Source: a virus. Taken from it: a DNA stretch of 28,739 nt. A program made the translations under genes and the position numbers. The notes under the pieces are model-generated. The model searched no databases and was not told where the DNA came from. It worked only from the letters and a program-made list of their open reading frames with translations. Positions 922 through 22,153 of this stretch are shown here, piece by piece. The stretch spans positions 1-28,739 of the IMG/VR virus record IMGVR_UViG_3300006917_000108. One strand, 5' to 3'. Position 1 is the first letter of the stretch; each line of letters opens with the position of its first letter.

Positions 922-1548
922 ATGGCGGACCCATTGACGATGGCAGCGGGTGCAGCGGGCGCGAGCGGCGCTGGGGCAGGCGCGTCCCCTCTCGCCGGGG
1001 GCCTTCCCGGGCTCTCGGGGTCCATCCCCGGGCTGGTCATGGCCGGGCTTTCGTACCTCCCCAGCAAGGAAGAGCAGGCGCTCCGGAAGCAGGTCGAGGC
1101 GGACCGCAAGCGACTGGCCGGCGGCGCGGGCGGGATGTCCGAAGGACTCCGCCAGCAGGCGCAGGCGAATCTCGCGAACACCGTGCAGGCCCAGCAGCAG
1201 CAGGCGCTCGCCCAGCTCGCGCGCGGAAGCGCCATGGGCGGAGGCGAAAGCGGCATCAGCACGGCGCGGCAGCTCGGCGTCATCGGCGCGGGCCAGCAGG
1301 CCATGATGCAGGGCGTGGGCCAGCTTCGCGAGCAGGATCTCATGGCCGCGCAGCAGCAGCGCGCGCTCAACACGCAGCAGCTTCAGTACCTCTCCCAGAT
1401 GGAGATGGCGCGCCGGCAGGCCGCGCTCCAGAAGGCACAGGAGGCCATCGGGCTCACCCCCGCGCAGCAGCAGGAAGCGATGCTCCGTGGGCAGACGGAA
1501 CGCGGCCAGCTCGCGCAGGGCGTGCAGGGCCTCGCAGGAACCATGTAA
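922..1548 (+). CDS. Putative internal virion (ejection) protein, 208 aa, gp14-like
   Basis: The start is ATG after a strong AGGAGGG site. The first 60 or so residues are Ala/Gly-rich with a hydrophobic stretch (LPGLSGSIPGLVMAGLSYL, about residues 28-46). The rest is Gln/Ala-rich, strongly helical and probably coiled coil (QAQQQQALAQLARG and following). A small helical protein with a hydrophobic N-terminal segment, encoded just before two larger helical proteins, matches the layout of T7-like internal virion proteins 14, 15 and 16. Those form the trans-envelope DNA conduit. The assignment rests on architecture and gene order, because no diagnostic motif is present. A scaffold-like protein is the main alternative. 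Confidence 0.55.
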   Translation: MADPLTMAAGAAGASGAGAGASPLAGGLPGLSGSIPGLVMAGLSYLPSKEEQALRKQVEADRKRLAGGAGGMSEGLRQQAQANLANTVQAQQQQALAQLARGSAMGGGESGISTARQLGVIGAGQQAMMQGVGQLREQDLMAAQQQRALNTQQLQYLSQMEMARRQAALQKAQEAIGLTPAQQQEAMLRGQTERGQLAQGVQGLAGTM

Positions 1549-1557: not shown

Positions 1558-3348
1558 ATGGCGCAGCAGATTGCGGGGCGTGCCCCGAACATCCTCGACT
1601 ACTTCCAGATGCGGGCGCTCGCCCGGCGCACCCCGCGTACCATCGAGCGCGACATCGAGGGGGAGAACCGGCTGAAGATCGAGCTGGTCAAGGCCATCGC
1701 GGACTTGGAGAAGACCAAGGCGGACATCCAGAAGGCCACGCTCACGGGCATGACGGACATGTACACCAAGTTCGCAACCGCGCAGGCCAGTATGCTTGGT
1801 GCCCTCGCAGACGAGGTCAAAGGGCAGGCCATGACGGCTGACGCCAAGGCGGCAATCGTCAAGACGATCACGGGAGAGTTCGAGCAGATCAACGGCATGA
1901 TCGCGGCAGGGCAGCCCGAGGCGTCGTTCATGCAGAACATCGCGAGCCCGGACAAAGGGATCGCGGCGATCCAGACGGCGTTCACGAGCGCGGTGGCGAA
2001 CCCGAACAACGAACGCGCCGCGCTCATCGCGGAGTTGAAGCCGCAAGAAGGAAGCCCCGCGCGCGTCGGGCGCGGGTTCGATGACCTCGTAAACACGCTC
2101 GACAAGGAGTTCGTCACTGGGTCTACGGGCATGGTGTCGAAGGTCAACGAGCAGCTCCGCACCAGCACCCCGTCCATGATGGCCACGAACGCGAACGGGG
2201 CCATGCGGCAAGTCGCGACCGGCATCGCTGCGGCGTTGCAGGCCATGCCGGATGTCCCGGACGATCAGAAGAACCTGCTGTACAACGAGCTGGTGGCGCG
2301 CGCGGCATCGTCCATCGAAGGCAACGCCATCGCAGCGTCTAGAAACCGCAACATCTTCACCGAGTACGCCGCGACCCAGAAGGACGCGCTCGATGGGATG
2401 AACGCGCGCCGGCAGGAAGTGTTCAAGCGTCTGTCCGTCGGAATCGACCCTACGCTGAAGAAGTCCATCATGGACAAGTTCGACGCGATCACGGGGGTCA
2501 TCACCGCGAATGACCCCATCGCGCAGCTTCAGGTCGCCCGTACGCGGCTCGCGGAGAAGGGGATCTCCCAGCCCGACGCCATGGCGACGGAGGAGCAGAA
2601 GAAGCAGTACGAATCGCTGCTCGCGCAGGAGTACAGCGCAACCACCCCGATGGAAGGGTTTGCGCAGCGCATCGCGACGCTCCCGGTCTCCCCGGAGATC
2701 GACAAGCAGATCGCATACCTGAAGACCCTGCTGGGCGGAGTCGGTGTCGAGCAGAAGGACGCGCTCACCATCGCGACCGCGCAGCTCCGCGAGAACATGG
2801 GCAACGAGCAGTTCGACGCGTGGCGCCGCATGGTGAACGCGGCGTCCGACGAAGACGCCGCCGTCGCTGCCGCGCAGGACCCCGGAAAGTTCGCGCAGTT
2901 CCGCGTTGTCGCGAAGGCTGTCCCGCAGGCGCCGCAGGCGCCGGAGGCGTTCCGTTCGCTCGTCGTGAACACGGCGATGAACGCGAACGCGCAGCAGCGC
3001 GAGGCCGCCCGGGAAGCGCTCCGGGTATACGACGCGCAGCAGAAGGCCAAGCCCGAACCGACGCCGCGCATGAAGGACCAGCTCCCGGAAGTGACGCCCC
3101 CGATGAAGCCGCTGGAGGTCCCGGGGCTGACCGACGCCGAAGCGTCTCCGTTTGCGGCCCCTCCCGCGCAGGCGGTGGCCCCCGCGCCCACCGGACAGGC
3201 GATGGCGATGCCCCAGCCCACCCCGTTCGGAGCGGCGGTCGCGCAGGTCGCAGCGCCACGCGCGCAGCTCTTCGGGACGGGCGGGCTCATGTCGCGAAAG
3301 GCGCAGGAAGCCATGGGACTCATCCCCCCGCAGCCGTATCGAGCGTAG
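1558..3348 (+). CDS. Putative internal virion (ejection) protein, 596 aa
   Basis: The start is ATG following AAGGAGGGG, nine bases after the previous stop. The 596-residue product is mostly alpha-helical, with charged heptad-like stretches at about residues 30-70 (IERDIEGENRLKIELVKAIA) and further helical segments to about residue 480. A Pro/Ala-rich, low-complexity C-terminal part follows (about 495-560). No enzyme motif or membrane segment is visible. Size, helicity and position between the 208-aa protein and the giant protein fit the middle component of a three-protein ejection apparatus, comparable to T7 gp15. That is an inference from organisation, not from recognisable homology. The gene uses the same reading frame as its upstream and downstream neighbours. 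Confidence 0.55.
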   Translation: MAQQIAGRAPNILDYFQMRALARRTPRTIERDIEGENRLKIELVKAIADLEKTKADIQKATLTGMTDMYTKFATAQASMLGALADEVKGQAMTADAKAAIVKTITGEFEQINGMIAAGQPEASFMQNIASPDKGIAAIQTAFTSAVANPNNERAALIAELKPQEGSPARVGRGFDDLVNTLDKEFVTGSTGMVSKVNEQLRTSTPSMMATNANGAMRQVATGIAAALQAMPDVPDDQKNLLYNELVARAASSIEGNAIAASRNRNIFTEYAATQKDALDGMNARRQEVFKRLSVGIDPTLKKSIMDKFDAITGVITANDPIAQLQVARTRLAEKGISQPDAMATEEQKKQYESLLAQEYSATTPMEGFAQRIATLPVSPEIDKQIAYLKTLLGGVGVEQKDALTIATAQLRENMGNEQFDAWRRMVNAASDEDAAVAAAQDPGKFAQFRVVAKAVPQAPQAPEAFRSLVVNTAMNANAQQREAAREALRVYDAQQKAKPEPTPRMKDQLPEVTPPMKPLEVPGLTDAEASPFAAPPAQAVAPAPTGQAMAMPQPTPFGAAVAQVAAPRAQLFGTGGLMSRKAQEAMGLIPPQPYRA

Positions 3349-3363: not shown

Positions 3364-6300
3364 ATGGCCACGCCCCCCAAGCAGATCCTGACGGAGCCCC
3401 TCCCCTCGTTCTCCGAAGCTGCGAAGCAGGTACCCGTCCCGGCGGCGCCTGCGTTCGCGGCTCCGACTACACCGAGCGGGACGGAAGCACCGGCTCCTCG
3501 TGCGCCTACGATGGCGGAGGTCCCGGCGGGCGCCCAGTTCTTCCCGTACATCCCGCGCGCGTACGACACGCCCGCTGGCCCGGGCCTTGGCTATGCCCGC
3601 ATGAACCCGGCGGAGGCGTCCAAGGCGTTCGCGGGCACGAGCAAGATGGCGGCCCCGGAGCAGCTGGCGGCGCGCGAGATGATCTACACCTCGCTGACGG
3701 GCCGCCCCCCGCCGGTCACGGTGGAGCAGATCAAAGACGCGCAAGACACCCAGTGGTGGGAGCACCTCATCGGGTGGCTGGAACCCCTCGACCTCCCGCG
3801 ACGCGGCGCGTACTACCTCGCGGCGACGGCATCGGAGAAGGCGCTCCCTGACAGCGGCACCCCCATGGGAGACACGCTCGAAGGCATCGCGGGGAAGGGC
3901 GCGCGACTGTTCGGCGGGCTCCACGCCACCCTGTTTGGGGGCAGCCCCAGCGACGAGTACCTGAGCGGCATCGAAGAGATGGGCCGCAACATCTACAAGA
4001 CCGCGTCCAGCGACAAACTCGTCAACGAGTGGGCGAACACCCCCGGCTACTACTTCACGAGCCTCACCAACCCGACGGCCGAGAGCGCCCTCAACTATGT
4101 GATGCCGAAGGAGCTGGCCGCGCGGCTGGAAGCCTCGGCACCCACGCGGGCGCACCGGAAGGTCTACGAGTACCTCCAGTCGGACCTCGGGCGCCTCATC
4201 TTTGGCATGGGCGTGGACATCCTGTCGGACCCGCTGATGCTGTACGGCAGCGCGGGCAACTCCAGCAAGGTCATCCATGTCGGCGAAGACGCCTATCGGC
4301 TGAGCCGCACGGGGGTCGCCGCGTCGGAAGCCGTCGCGCGCAGCGCGGGCGTCACCGTGGACGACGCCATGCGCACGGTGATTCGTGCCTCCGGAGATGC
4401 CGCGTCGTCCGAGACGCAGGCGGCCCGGCAGGCGCTCGTAAAGGCGGAGCTGGATGCCGTGGCGCGTGCGGACAAGTTCGCATCCGACGCCGCGCACCTT
4501 CACGCGAACGCGGCGAACCCCACCGCCGCGCTCCAGCCGCTGCTGGACGAAGCCACGCAGGCGTTCGAGGCGGTCCGCGAAGCCGCCAAGACCCAGAGCA
4601 AGGCGGCGGCCCAGCTCCCCGCTGCGGAAGAAGCACTGGCGGCCATGCGTCGCCGCATGACGCAGGTGGCGGCGAACCCCCAGAAGGCGGCGCGGGCAAT
4701 CCGCAAGCTCGCCGTGCAGATGGAGCGGTCCTCCGCTGCGGAGCGCACCTTCGCGGACAACACGCGGCGCGTCCTCGATGCGGCCCAGAACGAGCGCCTG
4801 CTGACGCAGCCCCTCTTCTCGGCGGGGAAGACGCTCCGGACGGAGGGGTATGTCTCGAAGATGGGCACGCTGCCCGTCCATGTCCCCTTCGGGGAGGTGT
4901 CGTACAGCCTCCTGCCTGAGATCAAGCCGGTGACCAAGCTCGGCAAGGCGGCCGGAAACCTGCTCGCTCCCTACAAGTTCGCGACGCTCTCGGACCGGGT
5001 CGCCACGGCGAAGGCGGTGGGACGGTCTGCGTACGAGGTGCTCTCCCCCGGAGAGACCATCGCCTATGTCGGGCAGAACATGCTCCGGAAGGGCGTGACG
5101 CATCCGTACCGCGTGTTCCACGACATCATCGGACGCACCTTCGGCACGCGCTTCGTGCAGCCCATGCTCATGCGCCTGTCCGCCATGCAGAGCGTCGGCG
5201 GCCTGAAGGGAACGCAGGAGATGTTCCCCGCCGCCCGGGTCGTGTACGGCAAGTGGGTCGAGCTGCCGGAGGTCGCACCGGAGCTGTGGCAGAAGTACCA
5301 GAGCGCCGTCGAGCGGTTCTTCGAGATGACCGCGTCGCAGGACCAGTATCTGCGTAGCACCATGGCCAGTGTCGTGGAGCAGGCGCGGGCGGTCGCGAAG
5401 ACGCGCACGGCCATGGCCAAGGCGGGCAAGATCACGGACCCCGTGCTCTCCGCGCGCTACGCGGACAACGCGTACGGGACGCAGGATGTCATCAACGAGG
5501 TCATGGACGCGCTGGAGACGGGCGCCGATGTCCTGACCCCGGGCACCCAGCGGTACCGCGCGGACCTCGCCGCGCTGGCTCCCGTCATCTCGCAGATTCG
5601 CGACGACATCGTGAACACCTTCGGGAAGACCGTGGACGAGGTGAACCAGAGCCTCCCGGCGCTGGCGCGCTTCATCACGGGGGACGAGACCTTCGCGAAG
5701 CTGGCGAGCGAGGCGCTCGCCGAGACGGACCAGATGGCCGCGACGGTGGCGGCGCGCCAGTCCCGTGCGTCCAGCATCCTCGCGGCGCATATGCCGACGC
5801 TTCAGGCGCGCACCCAGTGGCTGCTCGGAGCCATGGACGAACTGGACCCCACGAAGCTCGGGACGGCGCTGGACCGCTACCTCGCGCGGACCGGCGGGAA
5901 AGAAGTGACCCCCGCGCTGCTCCGGACCGTCGTGCTCGACATGATGGGCGGAGACGCCAAGCGGTCGCAGGCGGTGCTCCGGCGCATCGCGCTGTCGTTC
6001 GGCAAGACGGCTCCGGCGGACGGCGTGCATGTCCTCGCGGGCATGCTCACGGGGCGCATCACGGCGTCCCCGGGCAAGACCATCCTTCAGGCCATGCGCG
6101 ACCTCGTGACCGAAGCGGACGAAACCATCCGGCTTGCGCAGGCCATGCGCGAAGGACGCCTGACGACCAAGCAGGAAGTGGACGCGCTCATGCAGCTGGC
6201 CACCCAGACCACGCGCATCGAGCTGGCGCAGGCGCGCTCGCTGCTCGGCGAGCAGGGGTTCATGCAGGGCATGGTCATGGTCGAGGCTCTGGAGGAGCCC

Positions 6301-9300
6301 AACCTCATCCCGGCGCTCGTGCGCACGACGGGGAAGGACGAGGCCACGGTGAAGATCGCCGTCGCCTCGCTCCTCCGTGCGCGGGAAGGCACGCGGGTCA
6401 TGGCGACGGCGGCGGACATGAACAAGGCCGCGCTGCTCGCGGCGATGGACAAGCTCCATCTGCCCCCCGGAGCGCTGGACGATGTGTGGATCAACGCGAC
6501 GCTGGACAGCAGCGTGGCGGAGCAGCGGATTCGCGGCGCCATCACGGCGGCGGGCCCGAACGCGGAGACCGCCATCTTCGAGCGGCTGAAGCTCTCCGCG
6601 CTCGGTGGCAACCGGGGCGGCGCGCTCGACGCGTTCACGGAGCAGCAGCTCCGGAACGCAGCGGCGGAGATCGTTCGCGCGAGCCAGCAGGCGACGACGC
6701 TCCCCGTGTTTCCGGACGCAGCGGTAGTTGCGGCGGCTCGGAACCAGCTGACGATTGACGAGGCGCATCTGGCCACGGTGAAGCAGGCGCTTGCCGATCT
6801 GGAAGCCGCCCGGGCGGCTGCGGCACCGGATGCTCCGGAGATCGTGAAGCTCTACACGCAGGCCGAGAAGGACGCCATCGCGGACGCCGAAGCGCGGGTC
6901 GCCGCTGCCCGGAAGGCGTACGAAGACGCGGTCCGCAACGCGCCGCCGCCTGCCCCACCCCCTCCGCCGCCCCCTCCCCCTCCCCCGCCTCCCCCTCCGC
7001 CCGCGCCGTCGCCGGTCCCGCCTCCTCCCCCTCCTCCGCCCCCGGTGCCGGCACCCCCCGTGCCGGCACCCCCGTCCACCGCCGCCATCGAAGCAGCGGG
7101 CCAGAAGATCGTGGCGGCGGACGCCGAAGTCGTCCGTGCGCGCCAAGTCATCGACGCCAAGGTCCTGCGTGGAGCCTCGCCGACGGTCCAAGAACGGCAG
7201 GATCTCATCAAAGCGATGTCCGCGCGCAAGGCGGCGCAAGAAGCGTACGCTGCGCTGGCGACGACCTTCGGCGAACTCCCGCAGGCGCAGTCCCCGCTCA
7301 TCAAGGCAGCGAGCCAAGGTCCCGCTGGGGACGGCGCGCGGCTGACTCCGGCGGAGCTACAGGTCCAGCGAGACCGCCTCGCAGCGGACCCGCTGCGTCG
7401 CGCCATCGAAGCCAAGTTTCCGCAGGGCGGGACGGTCAAGGATTTGATGGACTTCGCGGCGTCTCTGCGCAACGATCCGGGGCTCGCGGCGGCTGCCGGC
7501 GACAACAAGATGGAAGCGCTGGACTGGATGGTGCTGGACAAGCTCCGCGACATCGGCGGCGAGCTTGACCGTGCGACATTCTCGTGGTTCCAGCCCGGGG
7601 ATGTGTACAGGGACACCGCTTCTCCCGGCTGGGCGGGCGTCGCCGTCTACCCCACGAGCCCCGGGGAGCGGATTCAGGTCATCTTCCAAGACTCGGCGTA
7701 CGATGCGACGCGGCAGCCTACGATTGGGGTAGGACCACTTGCGGTCCACGAGCTGGTCCATGTCGGCACGCAGATCCGGCTCGAAGTTGGCCGCCTCGAC
7801 CCCTACGCGCCACTCGCGCTCCGAGAAGCCGCGCAGGAGATTTCGAGCCTGCACCGACTGGTGATGGACGAACTCCTCAATCTGCACCCACGGAATACGC
7901 CGAAGTACTACGGCCTGACCAACGAGCATGAGTTTCTCGCAGAGGCGCTGAGCGACCGCGCGTTCCAGACGCTGCTGAAGACCATCAAGGTCCCGTCCAC
8001 CGCCAAGAAGCCGACGACGGTGTGGGGGCGCTTCACGCGCGCCGTGGCCTCGCTGCTCGGGTTCGCCAAGAAGGATGAGAACGCGCTCACGCAGGCGTAC
8101 GCGCGCTTCGAGAAGCTCCTCGAAGCGTCGTCGGATCTCGAAGCGCGGACCGCGTACTGGGGGATGACGGGCAAGGGGTCGATCAAGACCCCCGCTGGCG
8201 TCGCGTCGATTCCGACCATGCCGGAGCAGATCGCACTGGACGAAGCCATCCGGAAGCTCCGCGAAGCCCAGCAGAGCGCCATGGACCGGGTGCGCGGGCG
8301 CTCCGAAGCGGCGCGGCTCGGGCGTCTCCGTAGCGACACAAGACGCGCGGAGCAGGCGATGACGGACACCAAGGCTGCGATTTCTTCTGCGGAGGCGAGT
8401 CTCCAGCAGGCGCAGACGGCGTGGAAGTCGCTGATGTCCCGGTATGTCTCGGAGACGACGGGAGATCTCCGCGACGCGTTCGATTCGCTGCTCCAGAACC
8501 TCCCGGAGTCCGGAAAGGTCCAGCGCGCGCAGCAGATCGCAACCACCGCCGAAGGCCAGCTCACCCAGCTTGCCGCCCAGCGGACGGCGCTGACCGAAGC
8601 CGAAGCCAAGCTCGGGCTCCGCATCCCGACGGCGCTCCCGCAGGGGTTCGCCGCGACGACGGACCTGCCCACGGTCAACCCGACGCGCGTGTTCTATGTC
8701 GCAGACGCCGACCTCGCGGGAGTCACCGCTGACAACATCGACAGCCTCGCCACGCTGACCCGCCCGAAAGACGGGTATGCGCTCGTCGCCATCGCGCCAG
8801 ACGGGACCGTGACCAAGGAAGCCGTGCGCCACACGCTCGGCCCCGTGTCGCCGCTCCGGAATGACGCCGTCGATGCGGCCATGGACTACCTGAAGTACAA
8901 CCCGCCCACGGAGCCCACGGGCAAGCTGAAGCTCCGCGAGCTGGACACATGGGAGCGGGCGCTGTGGACCCGGTTCCGCGCGGCGACGACGGGGCTCTCG
9001 GAGGAGAAGGTTCTCGAAGCCGCCATGCTCACGCTGCGGGATGCCCCCGTGGCGACGCGCGACACTTTCGGGAAGGCCATCCCGGGCGTCACCCCCCAGA
9101 CGCTCGGCAAGCGGTACGGGGACATCGACCCAGCCATCCGGCCGCTCGTGGAGGAGATGAACGGGCTGCTGAAGGCGTACGAGCGCATGTTCGTGCAGCA
9201 CGGTCTCGACTTCATCGCGGACCCGCTCCGCATGCTGAAGGATTGGGGCGTCAACCAGTACATCCCGCACATCCCGGTCTCGCGGAACATGGTCGCCGCC

Positions 9301-11955
9301 GGCAAGCTCTCGCCGGAGCTGCTGGCGCGCGGCGTCCGCAACCGGCCCGCCGGGTTCGCGTCGCTCGACAGCGCGCTCTCGACGGACATGCCCCAGCGGC
9401 ACGAGCGGCGGCTGGCGGGCACCGTGGCGGAGATCATGGCGGTCTCGAACGACCCGCTGAGTGCCCTGACGCTGGACCCGGCGAGCATCATCTCTCGGTA
9501 CACGAAGGCCAACGGTGCGCTCACGGCGCAGGACTTCCTCGTCATGATGCTTCGCGGGGGCGTGATCAAGGCGCTGAAGGCGACGCCGGACGAGAGCGTG
9601 GTGCAGATCGCCCTCCGGGAGCAGATGGTCCCGCTCTTCGCGCGTCCCAACCTGACGCGCGACCTCGACCTGCTGTTCGGCGCCGACGCGGCAGCGTGGG
9701 CGTCCGCGAATGTGGACCCGGCGGAGCTGGATGTCATCCGGGCCTCGATTCGCGCGTGGTCGGAAGGCGCGCGGGGCACCAAGCGCCTGAAGGACATCTC
9801 GCCGTTCGCCTCGTGGCTCGGCGAAGTCCCGGCGGTCCAGCAGGCCATCAACATCGAGGAGCTGCTCCTCGACATCCGGGCGGCCCAGTGGCGCAAGAAC
9901 GGGGCAGCCGCCACGCTGTTCAACATCCGGGACGAGTTCGACGCCGCGCACGCGGTCGCGAACGCAGCGGGGGCGCCCATCTCGGACGCCGAAGCATGGA
10001 AGACGGTGGCCTCCAAGGTCAACCGGCTGGCCTCGGAGGTCGGGTCGGAGATCCGGGTGGACCCGAAGATGCTCAACGCGTGGTTCGATGGCGGCCAGAC
10101 CAGCTGGCAGCTCTATGTCCCGGCGACCGTCGCGCAGAACATGCTCGACACGCTCGACTTCGCGTCCACCATGGAGCGTTCGCTCGAAGGCGCTGGCGGA
10201 ATGGTCAAGTCCGTCGCCGACAAGATCAACAACTTCTACAAGGGCTGGTACACCATCACCCAGATGATGCACCATGTCGGCAACGCCATCGGCAACATCT
10301 TCAACAACGCCATCGACCTCGGACCGCTCGGGGCGCTGAACCCGAAGACCAACCTCATCGCGACGCAGTTGACCCACGCCGCGTCCTACATGGACGAGTA
10401 CGGGTCGCTCATGAAGGCGGCGGAGGCGCTCGAAGCCCCGAAGCACGCGACGGAGTCCGTGTGGGACTTCACGCTGCGGAAGGCGCGCCTCCAGTCGTTC
10501 CGCACCATGGGCATCGCGAAGCTGCTGGACACGGGCATCGACCTCGGGGACGGCGTGTTCCGCGAGGCGGACACGGCCATGCGGCTGATGCGCGAACGCG
10601 GCGTGTTCACGGGTGGGCACAATGTCTACCTCGACCTCGACCGCTACGAGCAGGAGATGGCGGAGGTGTTCCGGCTCATGAACCAGCCGGAGGCCGTCCA
10701 GAAGCTCCAGCGCACGGCGGTCAACGCCCGCGACGCGATCATCCTGACCATGCCCGTGGCGTTCACGGGGGGCCTCTCGGGCTTGGGCATCGTCATCCCG
10801 CCCCGCATCGGGCGCATGATCTCCGGATTCGTGGAGAACCAAGCACGCGTCACGAACTTCGTGGCGAACATGCGCCGGTCGGGCAGCATCGACGCGTCGG
10901 TCCAGCACATGAACAAGTTCCTGTTCAACTACGCGGACCTGACGGCCGTGCAGAAGACATGGCTCCGCACCGTGTTCCCATTCTTCACATGGACCTTCAA
11001 GAACGCGTATCTCCAAGCGGGGATGATGCTCGAACAGCCCATGTTCTACCAGCTCTTTAGCCAGATGCTGCTGATCCATGGGCCCCGGGCGGTCGAAGCG
11101 TACGAGCGCGACATCGACTTCAAGGGTCGCTACCCCGCGCACCCGTGGAAGCGGTACTCGGTCAACTGGCGTCTCCCCCACGCGCGGTACCGTCTACGGC
11201 TTCCGGTCCCGGAGCACCCGACGCTCTTCCTCGAAGGCTTCCGCACGCCGTTCGAGAGCGCGGCAGAGACCATGGGGCAGGTCGCGTCGTTCGCGGCGGG
11301 CGTTCCCGGCATCCCGGAGACGCTGCTCGGACGCGGAACGGAAGCGGCAGGTGGCTCCATGAGCAAGTTCCGCATCATGAGCCAGATGCACTTCGCCGCG
11401 CGGTTCCTGTTCGAGAAGGCGTTCGACTACAACATCTACTACGACCGCCCGCTCTACCAGCTCGACAGCGCCAAGCCCGTCGGGCAGACCCTCGCCGCGC
11501 TCCACCGGACCTCCACTTCGGGGGTACCGTTTGTTGCGCCCATGGCCGCGCAGGTCCACAACGCGCTGGCCCGCGTGAGCGGCTACGGGGAGACCGTTCG
11601 CTACAACCCGAGCAAGAACATCTACGAGCCGGTTCAGGTTGCGAACCCCGGGTTCGCGCACACCTTCATGAACATGCCGTACAGCCAGCTGCTACGCACG
11701 CTGATTGGCGCCGCCGATGTCTACCAGTCCTCCATGGCGGAGTCGCTGACGAACGAGGCCGGCGTACAGCAGCTCTACGCCGTCCCGCAGGATGTGCGGT
11801 ACTTCGACGCGCTCACGGGCATCGGGCTCACGCAGGAAGACCCCATCGCGCGCATCCGGATGGTGGAGCGCGACGCGCGCGATATGCAGTTGCGAGCCAT
11901 GGAGGCAGGCGGAGGCGTGCTCTCCTACGACAAGCCCTTCATCTCCAAGAGGTAG
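3364..11955 (+). CDS. Giant polyvalent ejection protein with a zinc-metallopeptidase domain, 2863 aa
   Basis: The start is ATG after AAGGGGGG, 15 bases past the previous stop. An N-terminal helical region has a phage-typical segment VDILSDPLMLYG (about 284-295). Long helical and coiled regions follow to about 1190. Residues 1194-1237 form a proline tract with a few Ala, Val and Ser. Next comes a metallopeptidase-like domain: HELVH at 1462-1466 gives the HExxH pair, and NEHEFLAEAL at 1520-1529 supplies a likely third-ligand Glu. This pattern is known from peptidase domains of large polyvalent phage proteins. The C-terminal third has HHVGNAIGNIFNN (from 2303), FNYADLT (from 2521) and VFPFFTWTFKNA (from 2537), which resemble conserved motifs of giant phage proteins. 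Its length and place after two ejection-protein candidates suggest it is packaged and injected. Proteolysis of host or phage proteins is inferred. Confidence 0.8.
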   Translation: MATPPKQILTEPLPSFSEAAKQVPVPAAPAFAAPTTPSGTEAPAPRAPTMAEVPAGAQFFPYIPRAYDTPAGPGLGYARMNPAEASKAFAGTSKMAAPEQLAAREMIYTSLTGRPPPVTVEQIKDAQDTQWWEHLIGWLEPLDLPRRGAYYLAATASEKALPDSGTPMGDTLEGIAGKGARLFGGLHATLFGGSPSDEYLSGIEEMGRNIYKTASSDKLVNEWANTPGYYFTSLTNPTAESALNYVMPKELAARLEASAPTRAHRKVYEYLQSDLGRLIFGMGVDILSDPLMLYGSAGNSSKVIHVGEDAYRLSRTGVAASEAVARSAGVTVDDAMRTVIRASGDAASSETQAARQALVKAELDAVARADKFASDAAHLHANAANPTAALQPLLDEATQAFEAVREAAKTQSKAAAQLPAAEEALAAMRRRMTQVAANPQKAARAIRKLAVQMERSSAAERTFADNTRRVLDAAQNERLLTQPLFSAGKTLRTEGYVSKMGTLPVHVPFGEVSYSLLPEIKPVTKLGKAAGNLLAPYKFATLSDRVATAKAVGRSAYEVLSPGETIAYVGQNMLRKGVTHPYRVFHDIIGRTFGTRFVQPMLMRLSAMQSVGGLKGTQEMFPAARVVYGKWVELPEVAPELWQKYQSAVERFFEMTASQDQYLRSTMASVVEQARAVAKTRTAMAKAGKITDPVLSARYADNAYGTQDVINEVMDALETGADVLTPGTQRYRADLAALAPVISQIRDDIVNTFGKTVDEVNQSLPALARFITGDETFAKLASEALAETDQMAATVAARQSRASSILAAHMPTLQARTQWLLGAMDELDPTKLGTALDRYLARTGGKEVTPALLRTVVLDMMGGDAKRSQAVLRRIALSFGKTAPADGVHVLAGMLTGRITASPGKTILQAMRDLVTEADETIRLAQAMREGRLTTKQEVDALMQLATQTTRIELAQARSLLGEQGFMQGMVMVEALEEPNLIPALVRTTGKDEATVKIAVASLLRAREGTRVMATAADMNKAALLAAMDKLHLPPGALDDVWINATLDSSVAEQRIRGAITAAGPNAETAIFERLKLSALGGNRGGALDAFTEQQLRNAAAEIVRASQQATTLPVFPDAAVVAAARNQLTIDEAHLATVKQALADLEAARAAAAPDAPEIVKLYTQAEKDAIADAEARVAAARKAYEDAVRNAPPPAPPPPPPPPPPPPPPPPAPSPVPPPPPPPPPVPAPPVPAPPSTAAIEAAGQKIVAADAEVVRARQVIDAKVLRGASPTVQERQDLIKAMSARKAAQEAYAALATTFGELPQAQSPLIKAASQGPAGDGARLTPAELQVQRDRLAADPLRRAIEAKFPQGGTVKDLMDFAASLRNDPGLAAAAGDNKMEALDWMVLDKLRDIGGELDRATFSWFQPGDVYRDTASPGWAGVAVYPTSPGERIQVIFQDSAYDATRQPTIGVGPLAVHELVHVGTQIRLEVGRLDPYAPLALREAAQEISSLHRLVMDELLNLHPRNTPKYYGLTNEHEFLAEALSDRAFQTLLKTIKVPSTAKKPTTVWGRFTRAVASLLGFAKKDENALTQAYARFEKLLEASSDLEARTAYWGMTGKGSIKTPAGVASIPTMPEQIALDEAIRKLREAQQSAMDRVRGRSEAARLGRLRSDTRRAEQAMTDTKAAISSAEASLQQAQTAWKSLMSRYVSETTGDLRDAFDSLLQNLPESGKVQRAQQIATTAEGQLTQLAAQRTALTEAEAKLGLRIPTALPQGFAATTDLPTVNPTRVFYVADADLAGVTADNIDSLATLTRPKDGYALVAIAPDGTVTKEAVRHTLGPVSPLRNDAVDAAMDYLKYNPPTEPTGKLKLRELDTWERALWTRFRAATTGLSEEKVLEAAMLTLRDAPVATRDTFGKAIPGVTPQTLGKRYGDIDPAIRPLVEEMNGLLKAYERMFVQHGLDFIADPLRMLKDWGVNQYIPHIPVSRNMVAAGKLSPELLARGVRNRPAGFASLDSALSTDMPQRHERRLAGTVAEIMAVSNDPLSALTLDPASIISRYTKANGALTAQDFLVMMLRGGVIKALKATPDESVVQIALREQMVPLFARPNLTRDLDLLFGADAAAWASANVDPAELDVIRASIRAWSEGARGTKRLKDISPFASWLGEVPAVQQAINIEELLLDIRAAQWRKNGAAATLFNIRDEFDAAHAVANAAGAPISDAEAWKTVASKVNRLASEVGSEIRVDPKMLNAWFDGGQTSWQLYVPATVAQNMLDTLDFASTMERSLEGAGGMVKSVADKINNFYKGWYTITQMMHHVGNAIGNIFNNAIDLGPLGALNPKTNLIATQLTHAASYMDEYGSLMKAAEALEAPKHATESVWDFTLRKARLQSFRTMGIAKLLDTGIDLGDGVFREADTAMRLMRERGVFTGGHNVYLDLDRYEQEMAEVFRLMNQPEAVQKLQRTAVNARDAIILTMPVAFTGGLSGLGIVIPPRIGRMISGFVENQARVTNFVANMRRSGSIDASVQHMNKFLFNYADLTAVQKTWLRTVFPFFTWTFKNAYLQAGMMLEQPMFYQLFSQMLLIHGPRAVEAYERDIDFKGRYPAHPWKRYSVNWRLPHARYRLRLPVPEHPTLFLEGFRTPFESAAETMGQVASFAAGVPGIPETLLGRGTEAAGGSMSKFRIMSQMHFAARFLFEKAFDYNIYYDRPLYQLDSAKPVGQTLAALHRTSTSGVPFVAPMAAQVHNALARVSGYGETVRYNPSKNIYEPVQVANPGFAHTFMNMPYSQLLRTLIGAADVYQSSMAESLTNEAGVQQLYAVPQDVRYFDALTGIGLTQEDPIARIRMVERDARDMQLRAMEAGGGVLSYDKPFISKR

Positions 11956-11959: not shown

Positions 11960-12364
11960 ATGCCGGACGCACAAGGTTTCTCCTACGCGCACTGGACGGC
12001 GGTAAACGCCGCCGGCTACACGCTGCTTCTGGCGGGCGAGAGCACCAGCGACGCCTCCAGCTCGTACTTTCCGTCGAAGGGGACGATCTCGCATGTCGAG
12101 GTCGAGTTCCGCAACATCGCGGGCGCAGCGACCGCCACGGTCATCGGGACTTGGGACTCGGCGGGTGCCTTCGTCGCGCTCCCATCGGCGGCGGCATCCA
12201 TCACGCCCAGCCCCACGGACGCGACCAAGGGCGGCGTCATCCTGTCGGCCTCCCAGATCCAGTTCAAGCAGGGGGCGGACGCCACCAAGAAGCAGTTCGG
12301 CGTGTGGGTCAAGCTCGACGCCGGGACCGCTGACGCGCGCACGCGCGTCTACTGGAGGCGCTGA
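11960..12364 (+). CDS. Putative tail/fibre-associated structural protein, 134 aa
   Basis: The start is ATG (MPDAQGFSYAHW), four bases after the giant gene's stop, with an AGGTAGG ribosome site overlapping that stop. The product is Ala/Ser/Thr/Gly-rich with alternating hydrophobic stretches typical of a beta-sandwich (ISHVEVEFRNIAGAATATVI). No catalytic motif, signal peptide or membrane segment is seen. Its stop overlaps the start of the glycine-rich fibre gene by one base, so the two are probably translated together. A fibre-proximal, collar or receptor-binding accessory role is plausible from position. I do not recognise a family. Confidence 0.75.
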   Translation: MPDAQGFSYAHWTAVNAAGYTLLLAGESTSDASSSYFPSKGTISHVEVEFRNIAGAATATVIGTWDSAGAFVALPSAAASITPSPTDATKGGVILSASQIQFKQGADATKKQFGVWVKLDAGTADARTRVYWRR

Positions 12365-13437
12365 TGAACGGGTTCTTCGATTCGGGTGGGGTGACCACCC
12401 CCGTCTCCATCTCGGACGGCGGAACGGGGGCTACCTCGGCGGCCGGGGCCCGCACCGCGCTGAATGTCCCCAGCATCCCTGTCTCCGTGGCGAACGGCGG
12501 CACGGGTGCGACGAACGCCACGACGGCGCGCAGCAACCTCGGCATCACGGGCACGGGTGGCTGGCCGTCTGGCGTGTTCGGCGCCGGAACGGACGGCACC
12601 GTTGACTTCGACGGTACGAACACCTTTGCGTTCGCCACGAAGTCTGGCAGCATCTACACCCTGAGCCGCAGCGTGTGGGCGCAGAATGTGACCGTGCGTG
12701 CCGGCGTCACGGTCAACAAGCCGTGGACCCTGTATGTCCGGGGCACCCTGACCATCGAGGCCACGGGCGTCCTCGCCGACAACGGCAACAACGCCAGCGG
12801 TTCGGCGGCCGGCGGGCAATCGGGCGCGACCCGTATCCCGGAAAGCGTGGGCTCCCTCGCGGGTGCGGGGCGTGTCGCCGCAGGAACGGGGACGGGCGGA
12901 ACGAACCTCACCAACGCCTACGGCGGCGTCGGTGGCCTCGGTGGCGACCCCAACACCGTGCAGAACGGCGGACCGGGCGGGACCGTGACGGCTCCCGGAA
13001 CGGCTGCGAATCGCATCCGTGACGGCTTCTCGTACCTCGTCACGAACACGCTCCAGAGCGGCGCAACGCAGGTGGTCGCGAACGGCGGCACGGGTGGCGG
13101 CGGTGGCGGTCTGTTCCTCGGAACGGGCACGGGCACCACGGGTGGCGGCGGTGGGGGCGCTCCGATCTCGATGCTGGTCGCCGCGACCATCGCCAACTCC
13201 GGAAAGATCACCAACAACGGCGGCAACGGTGCGAACGCCGTGTCGGCCACCAACGACGCACAGTCGGGCGGTGGCGGTGGCGGCGGTGGCGGCTACCTCA
13301 TTATCGTCTCGAACACACCGCAGGCGTCCGCCGGGACCATCGAAGTCCTCGGCGGCACGGGCGGGACCAGCCTCGGCGTGGGCTGCGCGGACGCGCTCGC
13401 TGGCGGCGCCGGAACCCTCGACTACCGGGGACCCTGA
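12364..13437 (+). CDS. Glycine-rich tail fibre / adhesin, 357 aa
   Basis: The start is ATG overlapping the previous TGA by one base, with TGGAGG six bases upstream. Two copies of the phage fibre motif, DGGTGATSAAGARTALNV (18-35) and NGGTGATNATTARSNLGI (44-61), are typical of fibre shaft or attachment segments. Residues from about 75 to 130 read like beta-helix strands (WTLYVRGTLTIEATGVLADN). From about 131 to the end the chain is dominated by Gly runs (NGGTGGGGGG and GGGGGGGGGY) alternating with short hydrophobic strands such as YLIIVSN. This resembles polyglycine-sandwich adhesins and glycine-rich beta-helix fibre tips, which bind host surface receptors. Identification as a fibre is good; the receptor is unknown. 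Confidence 0.8.
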   Translation: MNGFFDSGGVTTPVSISDGGTGATSAAGARTALNVPSIPVSVANGGTGATNATTARSNLGITGTGGWPSGVFGAGTDGTVDFDGTNTFAFATKSGSIYTLSRSVWAQNVTVRAGVTVNKPWTLYVRGTLTIEATGVLADNGNNASGSAAGGQSGATRIPESVGSLAGAGRVAAGTGTGGTNLTNAYGGVGGLGGDPNTVQNGGPGGTVTAPGTAANRIRDGFSYLVTNTLQSGATQVVANGGTGGGGGGLFLGTGTGTTGGGGGGAPISMLVAATIANSGKITNNGGNGANAVSATNDAQSGGGGGGGGGYLIIVSNTPQASAGTIEVLGGTGGTSLGVGCADALAGGAGTLDYRGP

Positions 13438-15127: not shown

Positions 15128-15322
15128 CTACTCCAGAAGTCTCGCCGTTTCCGCGCACTTATCGCGGAGTTCTTCAACTACCAGATCCACCTTCTCGATG
15201 TATTCGAGACACTGGGCGAGCGCTTCACGCGTTTCTTCAGGGGTCAGTCCGTCCAGCGACAGCTTGGCGGACAGGGTCTCGATGTCGGGGCGGCGAGCGA
15301 GCGCCGCGACGAGGGGCCTCAC
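15128..15322 (-). CDS. Small helical protein coupled to the SbcC-like gene, 64 aa
   Basis: GTG at 15322 overlaps the TGA of the SbcC-like gene (GTGA), giving a 64-residue product. Its sequence RRPDIETLSAKLSLDGLTPEETREALAQCLEYIEKVDLVVEELRDKC is cleanly protein-like and helical, probably coiled coil in the second half. The upstream extension of the same frame is low-complexity antisense-like sequence, which is why I chose the overlapping GTG. No family is recognised. Tight coupling to an SMC-type ATPase suggests a small partner or modulator, which is inference from operon structure. Confidence 0.6.
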   Translation of the reverse strand: MRPLVAALARRPDIETLSAKLSLDGLTPEETREALAQCLEYIEKVDLVVEELRDKCAETARLLE

Positions 15323-17004
15323 AGCTCCACCACCGTCCACCCGGCGGGCGTCTTGCCGTGGGGAGGGATGGGAGAGGTGAGGATGACCTGCCCCGGCGCG
15401 GAGGATAGCGCGCGCATGACCGCTGCCAGCGTCTTGGGGTCGAACGCGCGCTCCTCCGGAGTGAGCACCGCGAGCGTCGCATCCATGGGGAGGATGGCGG
15501 CGCTCATGGCCAGCGTGAGTCGGGCCCACTCGGCGCCGGACAGCGCCGTGTGCAGCGCGCCGCTCCGGTCGAAGCCCGCGTGGAACACTTCACGGGCGCC
15601 CTCGGACAGCGCCATGCCGAAGATGTCCGTGCTCGGGAGGAAGCTCTGGACCTTGCCGGTGAACGCCGCCAGCGCGTCGGTGAGCAGCAGTCGCCCCGCC
15701 TGCGACAGCGCGTCTTCGAGCGACTTCCACGACGAGGCATCCGTGCGCGCCGTGTCCAGCTGGGTCATCAGCGTGCGGTACGAGCGCCACGCGGCCTGCG
15801 CGCTCTGGAGCTGCCGGAGCGCGTTCTCCGCAGCGTCGCACGCAGCCGCCGCCGTGGCGAAGTCCACCCCGCCGCCTTCGTCTTCGTCGCCCTCGGTGGC
15901 GGCGCTGTACGCGTTGCGGGCGTACGCCAGCTTCGACTGCGCCGACTCCATCTGGACCTTGGCCATGTTGAGGTTGGTCACGGCCCCGGCGTAGTCGCTC
16001 GCCGCCTTCATCTTGGCACCGAGAGCGGCGTTCACCGCCGCGTGCCGCTGGCGAAGGTGCTCCACCCCCGGCTGCGCCCCGCACATGATGCAGTCCGCGT
16101 CACCGCCGGAGATGGTGAACGCGAGCAGCTCCAGCAGCGACTGCGCGGTCGTCGTGCTCCCGGAGGGCTTCTCCAAGGTCGCGACATGGTCGCGCCACTG
16201 GGCGAACACGCCCTCGGCCGTCGCGGCGTCGGACTCCAGCACGGAGATGGTCTGGGCCAGCTGCTCCTTGCGCTGCGCGGCGTTGCGGCGGAACTGCGCG
16301 GCCTGCGCCGCGACCAGCACCTTGCGCGCGGCGGAAGCGGTCTCCTGCGCCGCCGCGATGTCCGCGTCGGACGGAGCCGCCTGCGTCACCCCACCAGAGG
16401 CCAGCGTGGCCTCCAGTGCCTTCACAGAGGCGTTGGCCTCCAGCTTCTTCTTGCGCGCGGCGGCTTCCAGCCCGTCCACCCCCACCCCCGGGTTCAGCAC
16501 CGTGAGCCGCTGGTAGTGCCCGTGGAGGCTCGGGGAGAGCATGTCGGTCAGGTTGCGCTGCGCGCTCGCACCCGCCCACTTCAGGAACTGCCGGCACGCC
16601 GTGTCGGCGCTGCCCAGCATGGCCTCCCGCACGGAGCGCACGGGGAGCAGCTCCTGCTTGGCGAACCACACGGGGACATCGTGGTCCGCCTTCCGCGCCT
16701 TGCCGTCGCCGACATACTCGACGGCGAAGACCGCCTTCTCCCCCGTGGAGAGCGTCGCCTCCGCGAACAGGTTGGCGCGACGCCCCGGCGCGAGCGCCAG
16801 AAGGTCCGCCTCCCGCGCGACATCGGCGCGCCCCGCGAGGTCGCTGGCGCGACCCGTCAGCGCCAGCTCGACCGCGTTGACGACGCGGGACTTGCCCTTG
16901 CCGTTCGCCCCGACGATGAGCGTCTTCTCGCCCAGCTCGACTTCCCAGAGCAGCCCGTCACCCGACTTCACATTCGACCGCACGCGATGCACATGCACAG
17001 ACAC
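15319..17004 (-). CDS. SbcC/Rad50-like ATPase with a CxxC zinc hook, 561 aa
   Basis: The start is GTG with AAGGAGG five bases upstream. The Walker A P-loop GANGKGKS is at 32-39, in the typical RecF/SbcC N-terminal setting. Two short helical arms (about 180-280 and 320-440) flank CIMC at 305-308, the CxxC zinc hook by which Rad50/SbcC dimers join. The ABC-type signature LSGAEW is at 488-493. The Walker B region is atypical (LAVLTPEERAFD, 511-522) and ends in a D-loop-like AFDP. The whole is about half the length of bacterial SbcC, so the coiled-coil arms are miniature. These proteins tether or process DNA ends, usually with the SbcD/Mre11 nuclease, which is absent from the window. A dedicated promoter lies just upstream at 17029-17057. 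Confidence 0.8.
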   Translation of the reverse strand: MSVHVHRVRSNVKSGDGLLWEVELGEKTLIVGANGKGKSRVVNAVELALTGRASDLAGRADVAREADLLALAPGRRANLFAEATLSTGEKAVFAVEYVGDGKARKADHDVPVWFAKQELLPVRSVREAMLGSADTACRQFLKWAGASAQRNLTDMLSPSLHGHYQRLTVLNPGVGVDGLEAAARKKKLEANASVKALEATLASGGVTQAAPSDADIAAAQETASAARKVLVAAQAAQFRRNAAQRKEQLAQTISVLESDAATAEGVFAQWRDHVATLEKPSGSTTTAQSLLELLAFTISGGDADCIMCGAQPGVEHLRQRHAAVNAALGAKMKAASDYAGAVTNLNMAKVQMESAQSKLAYARNAYSAATEGDEDEGGGVDFATAAAACDAAENALRQLQSAQAAWRSYRTLMTQLDTARTDASSWKSLEDALSQAGRLLLTDALAAFTGKVQSFLPSTDIFGMALSEGAREVFHAGFDRSGALHTALSGAEWARLTLAMSAAILPMDATLAVLTPEERAFDPKTLAAVMRALSSAPGQVILTSPIPPHGKTPAGWTVVEL

Positions 17005-17028
17005 CTCGACCTCCTTGGTCTGGGTCGA

Positions 17029-17057
17029 ATCTAACGCCGTGTGTTGCCGCGTGTCAA
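17029..17057 (-). promoter_or_regulatory. Leftward promoter P1 with conserved spacer element
   Basis: Read leftward: TTGACA (17057-17052), a 17-base spacer, then TTAGAT (17034-17029). This is close to the sigma70 consensus and 25 bases before the GTG of the SbcC-like gene. The spacer contains CGGCAACACACGGCG, which recurs almost unchanged in two other leftward promoters of the window (22119-22145 and 25119-25146). The -35 hexamer overlaps the stop of the upstream HTH gene. Confidence 0.65.
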
Positions 17058-17245
17058 CTGGAGAGCGACAACCCGTCGTGCAGCGCCATCAACCGCCGCA
17101 GGTTCTCCGGGTGCGGGACGCGCTCGGCGCGCATCCACCGGAGGACCGTCCACCAGCTCGCGCCGCACTCGACGGCGATCTCGTCCAGCGACACGCCTCG
17201 TGCGCGCAGCGCGTGAACCATCTGCGAAGTCTCGGTGAGCCTCAC
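17054..17245 (-). CDS. Small Cro/XRE-like HTH protein, 63 aa
   Basis: GTG at 17245 overlaps the previous gene's TGA (GTGA) and yields 63 residues. The core VSLDEIAVECGASWWTVLRW has the helix-turn-helix spacing of small lambda-repressor-type domains, and WMRAERVPHPENLRRLMAL forms the following helices. No oligomerisation or cleavage domain is present, so it resembles Cro more than CI. It is encoded immediately before promoter P1, which overlaps its stop codon, and could regulate the leftward promoters. That link is inference. Confidence 0.68.
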   Translation of the reverse strand: MRLTETSQMVHALRARGVSLDEIAVECGASWWTVLRWMRAERVPHPENLRRLMALHDGLSLSS

Positions 17246-17661
17246 GGCCCGAACATCAGCGCCCATCCGTCCCTCCACCGGTCCTGCCCCTTGTCCTCGA
17301 CACCCGCCACCTCGGCGAACTGGTCGCCGCCGTCCCAGTAGACGACCTTCTTGCCCGCGCCCCGCGCGTACCGAAGGATGTCCGCCGTCGCCTTGCCCAC
17401 CGAGAGCCCGTCCGTCACGATGGCGTGGAAGCGCGGCTGCCCCTCGTGGTCGCACCCGCAGCCCACGGAGTAGGTCCACCCGGCCCACCCGCCCTCGGCC
17501 TTGGCTCGCGAGGCGTAGTCGTCGCGCCCCGTCAGCACCTCGATCTTCGCGCCCGGGAACGACGCCGCAGCGAGATGCCGCAGCGCCTCCGCGCGCTCGT
17601 TGATCGTGTTGTCCGGCGTGCCCTTGGCGTGCGCGTAGAACAGCCGCATGGTCTTGCTCAC
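17242..17661 (-). CDS. Conserved phage protein of possible Rossmann-like fold, 139 aa
   Basis: GTG at 17661 overlaps the preceding TGA (GTGA). ATG four codons later is an alternative start. The N-terminus [10 protein letters not shown], a central [18 protein letters not shown] and a later [20 protein letters not shown] resemble a phage family I know only as uncharacterised. The alternating strands and helices, with small-residue turns, suggest a compact nucleotide-binding or deoxyribosyltransferase-like fold. No catalytic residue can be asserted. It sits in a run of small coupled genes downstream of DNA polymerase, so a nucleotide-metabolism role is possible. Confidence 0.68.
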
Positions 17662-17798
17662 TTGCCCCTCGCCTTCTTGGAGATCTCCACCGCCGCGAGC
17701 TGCTTCAGCGCCGCCGCCTTGGACTTCGGCTTCTTGCTCAGGGGACGGCCCGACGAGGAAGTCGCCTTGTACCCACCCGCAACCTTCTTGATGGCCAT
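17658..17798 (-). CDS. Small basic conserved phage protein, 46 aa
   Basis: A short leftward gene of 46 residues starts at ATG 17798 with GGAGG five bases upstream and ends by overlapping the next GTG. It reads [20 protein letters not shown], then [20 protein letters not shown] and a basic tail. This strongly Lys-rich pattern ([23 protein letters not shown]) is a small family I recognise from many tailed phages, with no function known to me. It lies directly downstream of the DNA polymerase gene. The positive charge would suit nucleic-acid or virion association. Confidence 0.75.
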
Positions 17799-17811
17799 GT
17801 TGCCTCCGTGA

Positions 17812-20340
17812 TTAGGCATCTACCCATGTATCGCCGAAGGTGCCAGTCGCCGTGAAGGGCACATCCAGCCCCGGGACGCGGCGCGTGAGGCTCGCAGCCA
17901 CGACTTCGGAGGCCCACTGGCCCATGCCCCTTGGGACCTCGACCGTGATGGAGTCATGGACCTGCGCGATGATGCCTGTCCCCGGACCCCACTTGTCCCA
18001 TGGGATCTCCGTCAGTAGGTCTTGCACCGCGAGGTGCATGATGGCGCTCTCCGTCATGATGATGGGCGCGTTCGTGATCTCGTTGCGCTCATCTTCGACG
18101 CCGTTCGGGTAGTCACGGCGGCGCCCGGCGACGGGATCGCTGCCCCACGGGTCGCACTTCCCCTTGCGCGCGTTGGTCTCCGCGATGGTCAGCTCCATGT
18201 TCCAGCCCTTCTCGAACTCCGGCATGGCCTCCAGCCACTTCTCACGCATGGCCGTGACCTGCCGCACCGTGAGCCCAAGGTTGATCAGCTCCCCACGGTC
18301 GTTCTCCGCCTTCGTGAGCACGCTCTGGATGGTGCTGGGCTCCGCGCCGTACGCAGCGGCGTACTGGAAGGTCTTGGCGATCTGGCGCATGGACTTCGCC
18401 TGCCCCGACCACTTGCCCCCGGGCTTGTCCGGATGTCCCGTCGCCTTCAGGAATCGCTCCCCGAAGATGGACTCCGCTGCCAGTGCGTGCGGGTCGCCCC
18501 CCTTCTGGAACACTTCGAGCAGCCGGGCCACCCCCCAGCGCGCCGCGATGATGCGAAGGTGGATCTGGTCTGCGTCCGCGCCCGCCAGCTCGTGCCCCGG
18601 CGCCCCTTGGAAGAGGTACCGGAACAGCGGAGGGATGGTCTGGAGGTTGGGGTCCGAGCACGAGAGACGCCCGACCAGCGTTCCGTGCGCGTTCCACGAG
18701 GCCCGGATGCGCCCGTCCCGGTCCCACGCCTTGCCGCCGAAGCGTGCCTGCTTCAACGGTGAAACATAGGTCCCAAGCCACTTGTTGCGCACCTTACGGA
18801 AGCGCCGCAGCAGCATGAGGAACGACTTCTGCTCCTTGCTCAGCGACTTCAACGCCACGAACCCGCGCAGCGCGTCGTCATTGACCGACGGGTCCCCCGT
18901 CTCGGTGAACTCCTCCGGCACGAGCTTCCACTTGGTGTACAGCAGGTCCCGCATCTGGGGTCCGCTGTTGGGGTTGAAGCTCTTCATGCCGAAGGCTTCC
19001 CCCACCTCGACGCACTGGAGACGCAAGAACTCCGACTCGTGCGTGAGCCACTCCTCCGTGCGCTCCCGCCACGACTGGTTCACATACATCCCGACCCGGT
19101 GAAGCCCGACGCACATGCCCTGTGCCCAGTGATCGAGGTCCAGCAGCGTCTGGGCGGGCGCCGCAGGGAGCGGCTCCGCCTGTCCGCGCTCCAGCACGCG
19201 CCGCGCCAGCGGGGCCGCCACGCGTGCCGTCACGACGCAGTCGAGCGCGCAGTAGTGGTGCAGCTCGCGGTCCGTCCGCGCCGCGTTCGCCAGCTTCTTG
19301 CCCTCGTTGTCCGCCTTCCACGAGTGCACATCGGTCCATGTCGAACCCACGAACCCGAGGTCATGGGGCAGCCCGGGCTCCGCCAGCCGGTGGAGCAGGA
19401 TGGTGTCCATGAGCGGGGCAGGCGTGACTCCGAGATAGCGCTCCATGGCCAGCCGGTCGTAGTACCCCGCGTTGTGGCCCACCCACTGGCGGCCGTCGGT
19501 GAAGGCGGCAGCGAGGACCTGCTTCACCCGGGCCAGATCTCCCTCGCTGTACCAGCGGGTCATGCCGTCCATGCCGAGCAGCGGCACCACGATGGCAGCG
19601 TCCTTGGTGGCGATGCCCACGCACCGCACCTGCGCGGTCAGGGGTTCCAGCCCGTCCGTCTCGATGTCGTACGACCAGAACGCCGCTGGCTGCGAGAGGA
19701 ACGCCTCCACCTCCGCCACACTGGGGAAGAGGTGGATGGTGGGGTCCTGCCAGTCGAGACTCCCCCGCATGAACCAGCGCGCGGCCCGGCCAAGATCCTT
19801 GGCCATGACGGGCAACCACTTCCGCGCCTTGATGGCCATGCCCGGAGAGACCGTCGGCAGGACCATGGTGCCGTTGGGTAGCGTCCGTGGACCCCCGCGC
19901 ACGGACAGGATGCCCATGGCCGTCCCCGTCACGGACTTCGTGGCGCTGTCGCCCAGCGTCACAATCTTACGCTGGCCCTCCAGCTCGCGCTTCAGGCGCG
20001 GCGCGCAGCACGCGACGGGGTCCAGCATCTTGGCCTTGCGCGCCTTGGCCTGAGCCAGCTTCAGGTCGTTGTTCATCGGCTGGCACGCCACGGCCAGATG
20101 CACGCTGGCCATGGACCGCGAGAGCCCCGCCGTGTCGAGCGCGTCGTTCAGGGCCATGCCGCCCGCGCTGGCGAGCGGGCGGTTCACGCGGACATCCTCG
20201 TACACCGGGAAGTCTGCGACCAGCGCGAACTGCGCGCCCGTCTTCAGGTCCGGTGCGACGGGACCGCCCATCCGGTCGGTCTTCAGGGGGCACACGGAGC
20301 ACAACGCCCCGCACGCTTCGGGGTTGTAGGTCTCGCCCAC
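17812..20340 (-). CDS. Family-A DNA polymerase with N-terminal UDG-like and 3'-5' exonuclease domains, 842 aa
   Basis: I place the start at GTG 20340, five bases after GGAGG. TTG at 20367 is in frame but lacks a ribosome site. Residues 1-185 resemble family-4 uracil-DNA glycosylases, with cysteines C10, C14, C17, C86, C111 and C112 that could hold an Fe-S cluster, and [18 protein letters not shown] in motif-A position. A similar fusion is known in SPO1-type phage polymerases. The exonuclease follows: DIETDGL (D225, E227), HNAGYYD (D295) and YCALD (Y363, D367). The polymerase has [13 protein letters not shown], motif [10 protein letters not shown] (D589), motif [15 protein letters not shown] (R652, K656, Y660) and motif C VHDS (D796). 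H594 replaces the usual motif A Glu. It is the replicative polymerase of the phage. Confidence 0.93.
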
Positions 20341-20375
20341 GGCGACCTCCACATGCGGCAGGTACAAATAGAGAG

Positions 20376-20431
20376 GCCCCGCCTGCTGGGCACCCGGGGA
20401 GCATGGACCCGGATGGGGGCGCAGGCGGGGC
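20376..20431 (-). terminator. Long-stem hairpin between the ssDNA-binding and polymerase genes
   Basis: An 11-bp perfect inverted repeat (GCCCCGCCTGC / GCAGGCGGGGC; arms 20376-20386 and 20421-20431) encloses a 34-base loop. Read leftward, the second arm is followed by CTCTCTATTTG, a weak pyrimidine/T tract. It fits a partial terminator or attenuator that lowers polymerase expression relative to the upstream ssDNA-binding gene. Confidence 0.4.
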
Positions 20432-20473
20432 GAGGAACGCCCCAGAGCACACGATGTCGTCTATCCCGGGGTA

Positions 20474-21082: not shown

Positions 21083-21119
21083 GATGGCTGCACTCCTGAC
21101 TGCTGTTGACCGGGCCGCA

Positions 21120-21149
21120 TAGATAGCCCCCGTGAGCGCGCGGCCCTAA
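21120..21149 (-). promoter_or_regulatory. Weak leftward promoter candidate upstream of the ssDNA-binding gene
   Basis: Read leftward, TATCTA (21125-21120) is preceded by CACGG and, 18 bases from the -10, by TTAGGG (21149-21144). The CACGG-to-TATCT part matches the spacer end of promoter P2, but the CGGCAAC half is missing. It may be a degenerate fourth copy of the shared promoter or chance. Confidence 0.25.
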
Positions 21150-21175
21150 GAAACGCGCACGGGGCTTGGGAAGGG

Positions 21176-21209: not shown

Positions 21210-21215
21210 GTGGCG

Positions 21216-22100: not shown

Positions 22101-22118
22101 CAACACCTCGCCCCACTT

Positions 22119-22145: not shown

Positions 22146-22153
22146 GTCCTTCC

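Follow-up and report, generated by a model that had tools for sequence, protein, structure and literature searches.

Two of the described systems closest to the locus analysed here serve as background. The virion RNA polymerase of phage N4, the founding member of the polyvalent metallopeptidases, is a giant protein with a zincin-like metallopeptidase domain, C1, of the type found in polyvalent proteins by Iyer et al. (2017). It is packaged unprocessed (PMC5512222), with no degradation seen (PMC12633501), and an N4 preprint notes the HExxH motif, there only in C1 (PMC12633501). The other system is the ejection complex of phiM1, in which residues 268-528 of the tetrameric ejection protein (TEP, gp48) were assigned as an 'endolysin/exotransglycosidase-like domain' on the basis of BLASTP and DALI (PMC11440229). 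The words protease, peptidase and HEXXH are absent from the text of that paper (PMC11440229).

The window, by which we mean the whole stretch of 28,739 bases analysed, is a linear IMG/VR virus record with a G+C content of 64-72% in 1-kb intervals along its length. The open reading frame at 3364..11955 on the plus strand is a real gene encoding a protein of 2863 aa. It starts with ATG, with the Shine-Dalgarno-like sequence AAGGGGGG upstream, and its G+C content by codon position is 0.675/0.484/0.892. Long minus-strand frames lying over the gene were rejected as GC shadows, since their codon-position pattern mirrors that of the plus-strand gene. The N-terminal part of the protein (residues 1-1193; 3364..6942) is rich in alanine and has no convincing family; a tape-measure PHROG matches residues 260-475 weakly, and this is probably compositional. 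There follow a proline-rich tract (residues 1194-1238; 6943..7077), a zincin-like metallopeptidase domain (residues about 1381-1605; 7504..8178) and a C-terminal body (residues 1606-2863; 8179..11952).

Upstream of the giant gene on the same strand lie genes for a 208-aa Gly/Ala/Gln-rich protein (922..1548) and a 596-aa protein (1558..3348), and downstream a gene for a tail fibre-like protein (12364..13437; phrog_5481, E=0.0016; phrog_13336, 4e-5). By size and order this is the T7 arrangement gp14-gp15-gp16-gp17, with the two upstream genes placed in the gp14 and gp15 positions by order and size only; profile tests of both against gp14 and gp15 were negative. The same order is found in Limnohabitans phage YIMV22061 and in relatives of phiKMV, and in these phages the gene in the gp16 slot carries the metallopeptidase domain. 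The giant gene thus occupies the position of an ejection protein within a T7-like arrangement, in agreement with the initial annotation, which had called it ejection-type from the sequence. The core body has no profile match to the ejection proteins T7 gp16 or phiKMV gp37. We therefore regard the giant as a putative ejection protein because of its slot and the company its domain keeps, and not through descent of the whole chain; together these suggest that it is an ejected virion protein. No portal, capsid or terminase gene is recognised in the 28.7-kb fragment, so the short-tailed virion is something that we infer.

The remainder of the window contains replication genes at 15319-28012, mostly on the minus strand. 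These encode a SMC/RecN-like ATPase (15319-17004), DNA polymerase A (17812-20367), a Sak4-like protein (region 21216-22733), a PD-(D/E)XK nuclease (22465-23367) and a helicase (23364-25100), with a DUF3987 primase-like gene on the plus strand (25150-26484). Four IMG/VR contigs (L029-L032) encode a DNA polymerase 71-100% identical to that of the window, and no match to the giant protein is found in them. One of these, L032, is 99.7% identical to window positions 19009-28553, so that nearly the same phage has been sampled twice. Searches of IMG/VR with the whole giant protein or its C-terminal part found no close relatives of the gene, nor did searches with a PFFTWT DNA pattern or the gene at 202-912. 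A plasmid search found nothing.

When the whole protein was searched against phage genomes, the matches were confined to around residues 1460-1604. The domain alone matched proteins of Limnohabitans phage YIMV22061, Serratia phage Parlo, Variovorax phage VAC_51 and a crAss-like phage, together with phiKMV-type and related Autographiviridae (SPCB, phiNV3, Bertil, C171, BF25/12 and VPv81). Matching IMG/VR loci (L015-L027) encode giant proteins of about 1400-3100 aa, each with one or two such domains. In the crAss-like record cr10_1 (MT774382.1) an unannotated open frame of 1206 codons at the end of the record (6303-9920) carries two metallopeptidase domains of the window group, with HEIVH at 568 and HEIAH at 809. 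Among bacterial genomes a four-sequence profile of the domain found one locus, at 10001-10351 of NZ_JAFVUX010000041.1, a contig binned as a sheep-colon Helicobacter MAG that is probably phage.

We compared profiles of the domain with solved structures. A profile of 14 domains (alignment A1) matches 9sfn, an internal virion protein, at 4e-57 and 8vb2, phiM1 gp48, at 8e-37, values inflated by the phiKMV-type members within the profile. It also matches 23sg (gp10) at 1e-9 and, at 4e-5, residues 2148-2321 of the N4 virion RNA polymerase. A profile of the window and IMG/VR proteins only, excluding phiKMV-type members, matches 8vb2 at 3e-15, 23sg at 1e-11 and 9sfn at 5e-11, the two profiles overlapping in membership. 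The next match of the latter is anthrax lethal factor (0.004), a distant zincin to which the search of Iyer et al. from N4 had also led (PMC5512222). In the opposite direction, a profile built from phiKMV-type domains alone recovers the window domain (2.5e-21), that of Parlo (1e-18) and further giants with E-values reaching 1e-5. About 1,000 decoys, made by shuffling or reversal, gave no hit at E<=10.

Among the PHROGs, phrog_37402 matches the window domain at 1e-10, and the virion RNA polymerase family is matched by 10 of the 14 domain members. A comparison with the known polyvalent peptidase domains, as the initial annotation had proposed, thus succeeds for the N4 region but not for Pfam MPTase-PolyVal (PF18818), which leaves the window unmatched at E<=10; three control genomes also score only below the cut-off of that model. 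The matches in both directions support the region at about 1381-1605 being a zincin-like metallopeptidase of the polyvalent-protein kind of Iyer et al. (2017), and the first reading had named the kind correctly. No second domain is recognised in the giant protein by Pfam, PHROGs or NCBIfam, so that it falls outside the strict sense of polyvalent, with several activities per chain. LPD38 was sought in the C-terminal part, including with hmmscan, and gave no match there or in the control genomes. A tree of the domain family did not resolve the branching.

The putative active site is made up of two short motifs. HELVH occurs exactly as previously placed in the translation, at residues 1462-1466 (7747..7761), and provides two predicted zinc-ligand histidines and the predicted general-base glutamate. 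NEHE (residues 1520-1523; 7921..7932) provides a conserved asparagine and the predicted third zinc ligand, E1523. The EFLAEAL motif invoked earlier as the source of the partner glutamate is present at 1523-1529; its first residue, E1523, is the conserved partner, while E1527 is conserved in a subset only. In alignment A1, in which the other domains are 15-29% identical to that of the window, the invariant columns are H1462, E1463, H1466, N1520 and E1523, and H, E, H and the E1523 column are also invariant in alignment A3. The position of N1520 is occupied by D in 8vb2. The N4 virion RNA polymerase retains HELVH (residues 2228-2232) and the downstream glutamate. An HExxH alone occurs in about 2% of composition shuffles of the giant protein, and the retention of H-E-H-N-E in homologs at 15-29% identity rules out chance. 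The invariance of H, E, H and E despite such drift is a sign of an enzyme kept active. Invariant catalytic residues amid wide divergence argue for a working enzyme.

The domain was modeled with AlphaFold2 on an alignment of 11 rows, giving a mean pLDDT of 58. A helical core is confident (pLDDT 73-92, model residues 121-160), and about half of the segment is low. HELVH lies in a predicted helix (112-134), with moderate confidence in the HELVH block, and E1523 lies in another (177-186). Where polyvalent zincins have a three-stranded sheet, before the active-site helix, the model shows two short strands of low confidence. In BFVD the model matched an internal core protein of the phiKMV type at 7e-5, along with further giant proteins of phages. 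A fold search of the PDB gave no significant match, likely because half of the model has low confidence.

About 140 residues separate the end of the proline tract from the homologous domain, and about 220 separate it from HELVH. The tract had been proposed as a linker that might release the protease. It is present but is absent from all 20 other carriers compared, so no role in domain release can be argued from it, and we rejected a functional release linker as unsupported. The motifs of the C-terminal body that had been likened to giant phage proteins lie at residues 2303-2315, 2521-2527 and 2539-2547, but no profile confirms a family. The segment FNYADLT...PFFTWTFKN (residues 2521-2547; 10924..11004) resembles by eye, with no statistical support, FNY...P...QFKK in two IMG/VR giants (L023 and L024) at a similar distance from the C-terminus. 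Compared with polyvalent bodies, phiKMV bodies and N4 C2, the C-terminal body showed no homology, and a structure predicted for it from the single sequence was unusable (pLDDT 33). A Gly/Ala-rich N-terminal domain recurs in Parlo, in several giant proteins from IMG/VR and at residues about 240-470 of the N4 virion RNA polymerase (loci L015, L017, L020, L023, L024, L003 and L028); it was not detected in the window protein. At detection limits neither the N- nor the C-terminal body has sequence homology to any ejection protein. An all-against-all comparison gives at least three types of carrier with different bodies: phiKMV-type, DarB/PLxRFG-type (L015, L017, L020, L023, L024, L027 and Parlo) and the window protein. 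The metallopeptidase domain therefore appears, from these comparisons, to behave as a mobile module.

This bears on the naming of the domain in the phiKMV-type proteins. The 14-domain profile covers residues 294-511 of the phiM1 TEP, where HEAAH and the glutamate are intact; the equivalent region of phiKMV gp37 spans residues about 330-560. Matched proteins are named in the databases 'internal virion protein with endolysin domain' or 'peptidoglycan lytic exotransglycosylase' (L007-L012 and others). A zincin-domain protein of Pectobacterium phage Lelidair is named 'diguanylate cyclase/phosphodiesterase'. No match to SLT, lysozyme or other lytic-enzyme Pfam families was found in five phiKMV-type proteins scanned. 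The likeliest origin of the endolysin and exotransglycosylase names would be transfer of the name of T7 gp16, and the cell-wall-enzyme label of the phiKMV/phiM1 domain is apparently wrong. Our literature search, with subscription papers and bioRxiv preprints outside it, found no link between zincins and phiKMV-type ejection proteins, and priority cannot be claimed.

The explanation that we favor, and consider fairly probable, is that the giant is carried inside the virion as an ejection protein, in a T7-like or other short-tailed phage, and has an embedded, latent zincin protease that acts after ejection. H1462, H1466 and E1523 would hold a zinc ion, and E1463 would activate water. The protein would be packed intact and leave through the tail alongside the other ejection proteins, and the protease would act subsequently in the newly infected cell, either in its envelope or in its cytoplasm. 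Its target would be a host protein or, as a second choice, the ejection protein itself; we prefer the former only mildly. An earlier suggestion that the protein disarms host defences is not supported, and Iyer et al. (2017) discuss self-processing first. In the literature surveyed no protease activity has been shown for these relatives.

Cutting of the giant chain by its own protease, before packaging or after entry, would free its other parts. This is a common role proposed by Iyer et al., and DdrB of P1 is processed before packaging (PMC5512222); the chain here is also unusually long. However, the N4 virion RNA polymerase has a homologous domain and yet enters the particle uncut, which disfavours cleavage ahead of packaging for that relative, and the proline tract, the only obvious linker, lacks conservation. 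We regard self-processing as unlikely. Less likely still is a structural role, in which the zincin fold is retained as part of the ejection complex and catalyses little or nothing. In the phiM1 complex the domain forms an insertion in the hub, where it gives shape to a groove that has been suggested to guide DNA (PMC11440229), yet a purely structural role requires no invariance of four catalytic residues across very diverged proteins with unrelated bodies.

The reading published for the phiM1 homolog, that the domain breaches the cell wall to make way for the ejection channel, draws on the assignment of residues 268-528 (PMC11440229) and the matching database names. It is weakened by the zincin residues in that same region and by the absence of SLT and lysozyme matches in the five phiKMV-type proteins. 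Moreover, zincins are not, to our knowledge, a usual fold for peptidoglycan hydrolases. Several relatives have another source of peptidoglycan cutting: the proteins of the Limnohabitans phage and Parlo contain an SLT domain as well, and in phiM1 a different ejection protein bears a lysozyme-like domain (PMC11440229). These separate lytic domains speak against peptidoglycan being the main substrate, and we consider the cell-wall role very improbable. With cutting before packaging and peptidoglycan both argued against, action after ejection remains, on host proteins or on the protein itself.

It is quite possible, if rather less probable than the reading we favor for the window protein, that the 'endolysin/exotransglycosylase' domain of phiKMV- and phiM1-type ejectosomes is an ejected zinc protease homologous to N4 C1, a module moving between unrelated ejection proteins including that of the window. 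If so, short-tailed phages would commonly use ejected zinc proteolysis early in infection. The solved ejection complexes 8vb2 and 9sfn hold an intact zincin signature hitherto read as a cell-wall enzyme. If the domain cuts proteins, the enzymatic role of phiKMV-type ejectosomes changes, as do about two hundred database records, and N4 C1 gains a family of simpler homologs.

The window protein resembles N4 C1 and the polyvalent zincins in its HExxH with a downstream glutamate, embedded in a giant protein that is probably virion-associated; unlike the N4 virion RNA polymerase it contains no RNA polymerase or other recognised enzyme. It shares the metallopeptidase domain with phiKMV-type gp37 and phiM1 gp48 (8vb2; 9sfn; 2.5e-21 to 3e-15), and their slot, before the tail fibre gene, matches its own. 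Those proteins are 1260-1340 aa in length, however, compared with 2863 here, and the bodies are not homologous at detection limits. The best single-sequence match of the domain (33%) is to XLZ15560.1 of Limnohabitans phage YIMV22061, which has a T7-like gene order; this protein is 1576 aa and has its own SLT domain at 16-118. The DarB-like antirestriction protein of Serratia phage Parlo (QBQ72230.1) has a metallopeptidase domain of 31% identity, with SLT, helicase, methylase and LPD39 domains in addition. The window protein is thus a new member of a known group and has diverged strongly; the consequence of wider interest is found beyond the window, in the solved ejectosomes.
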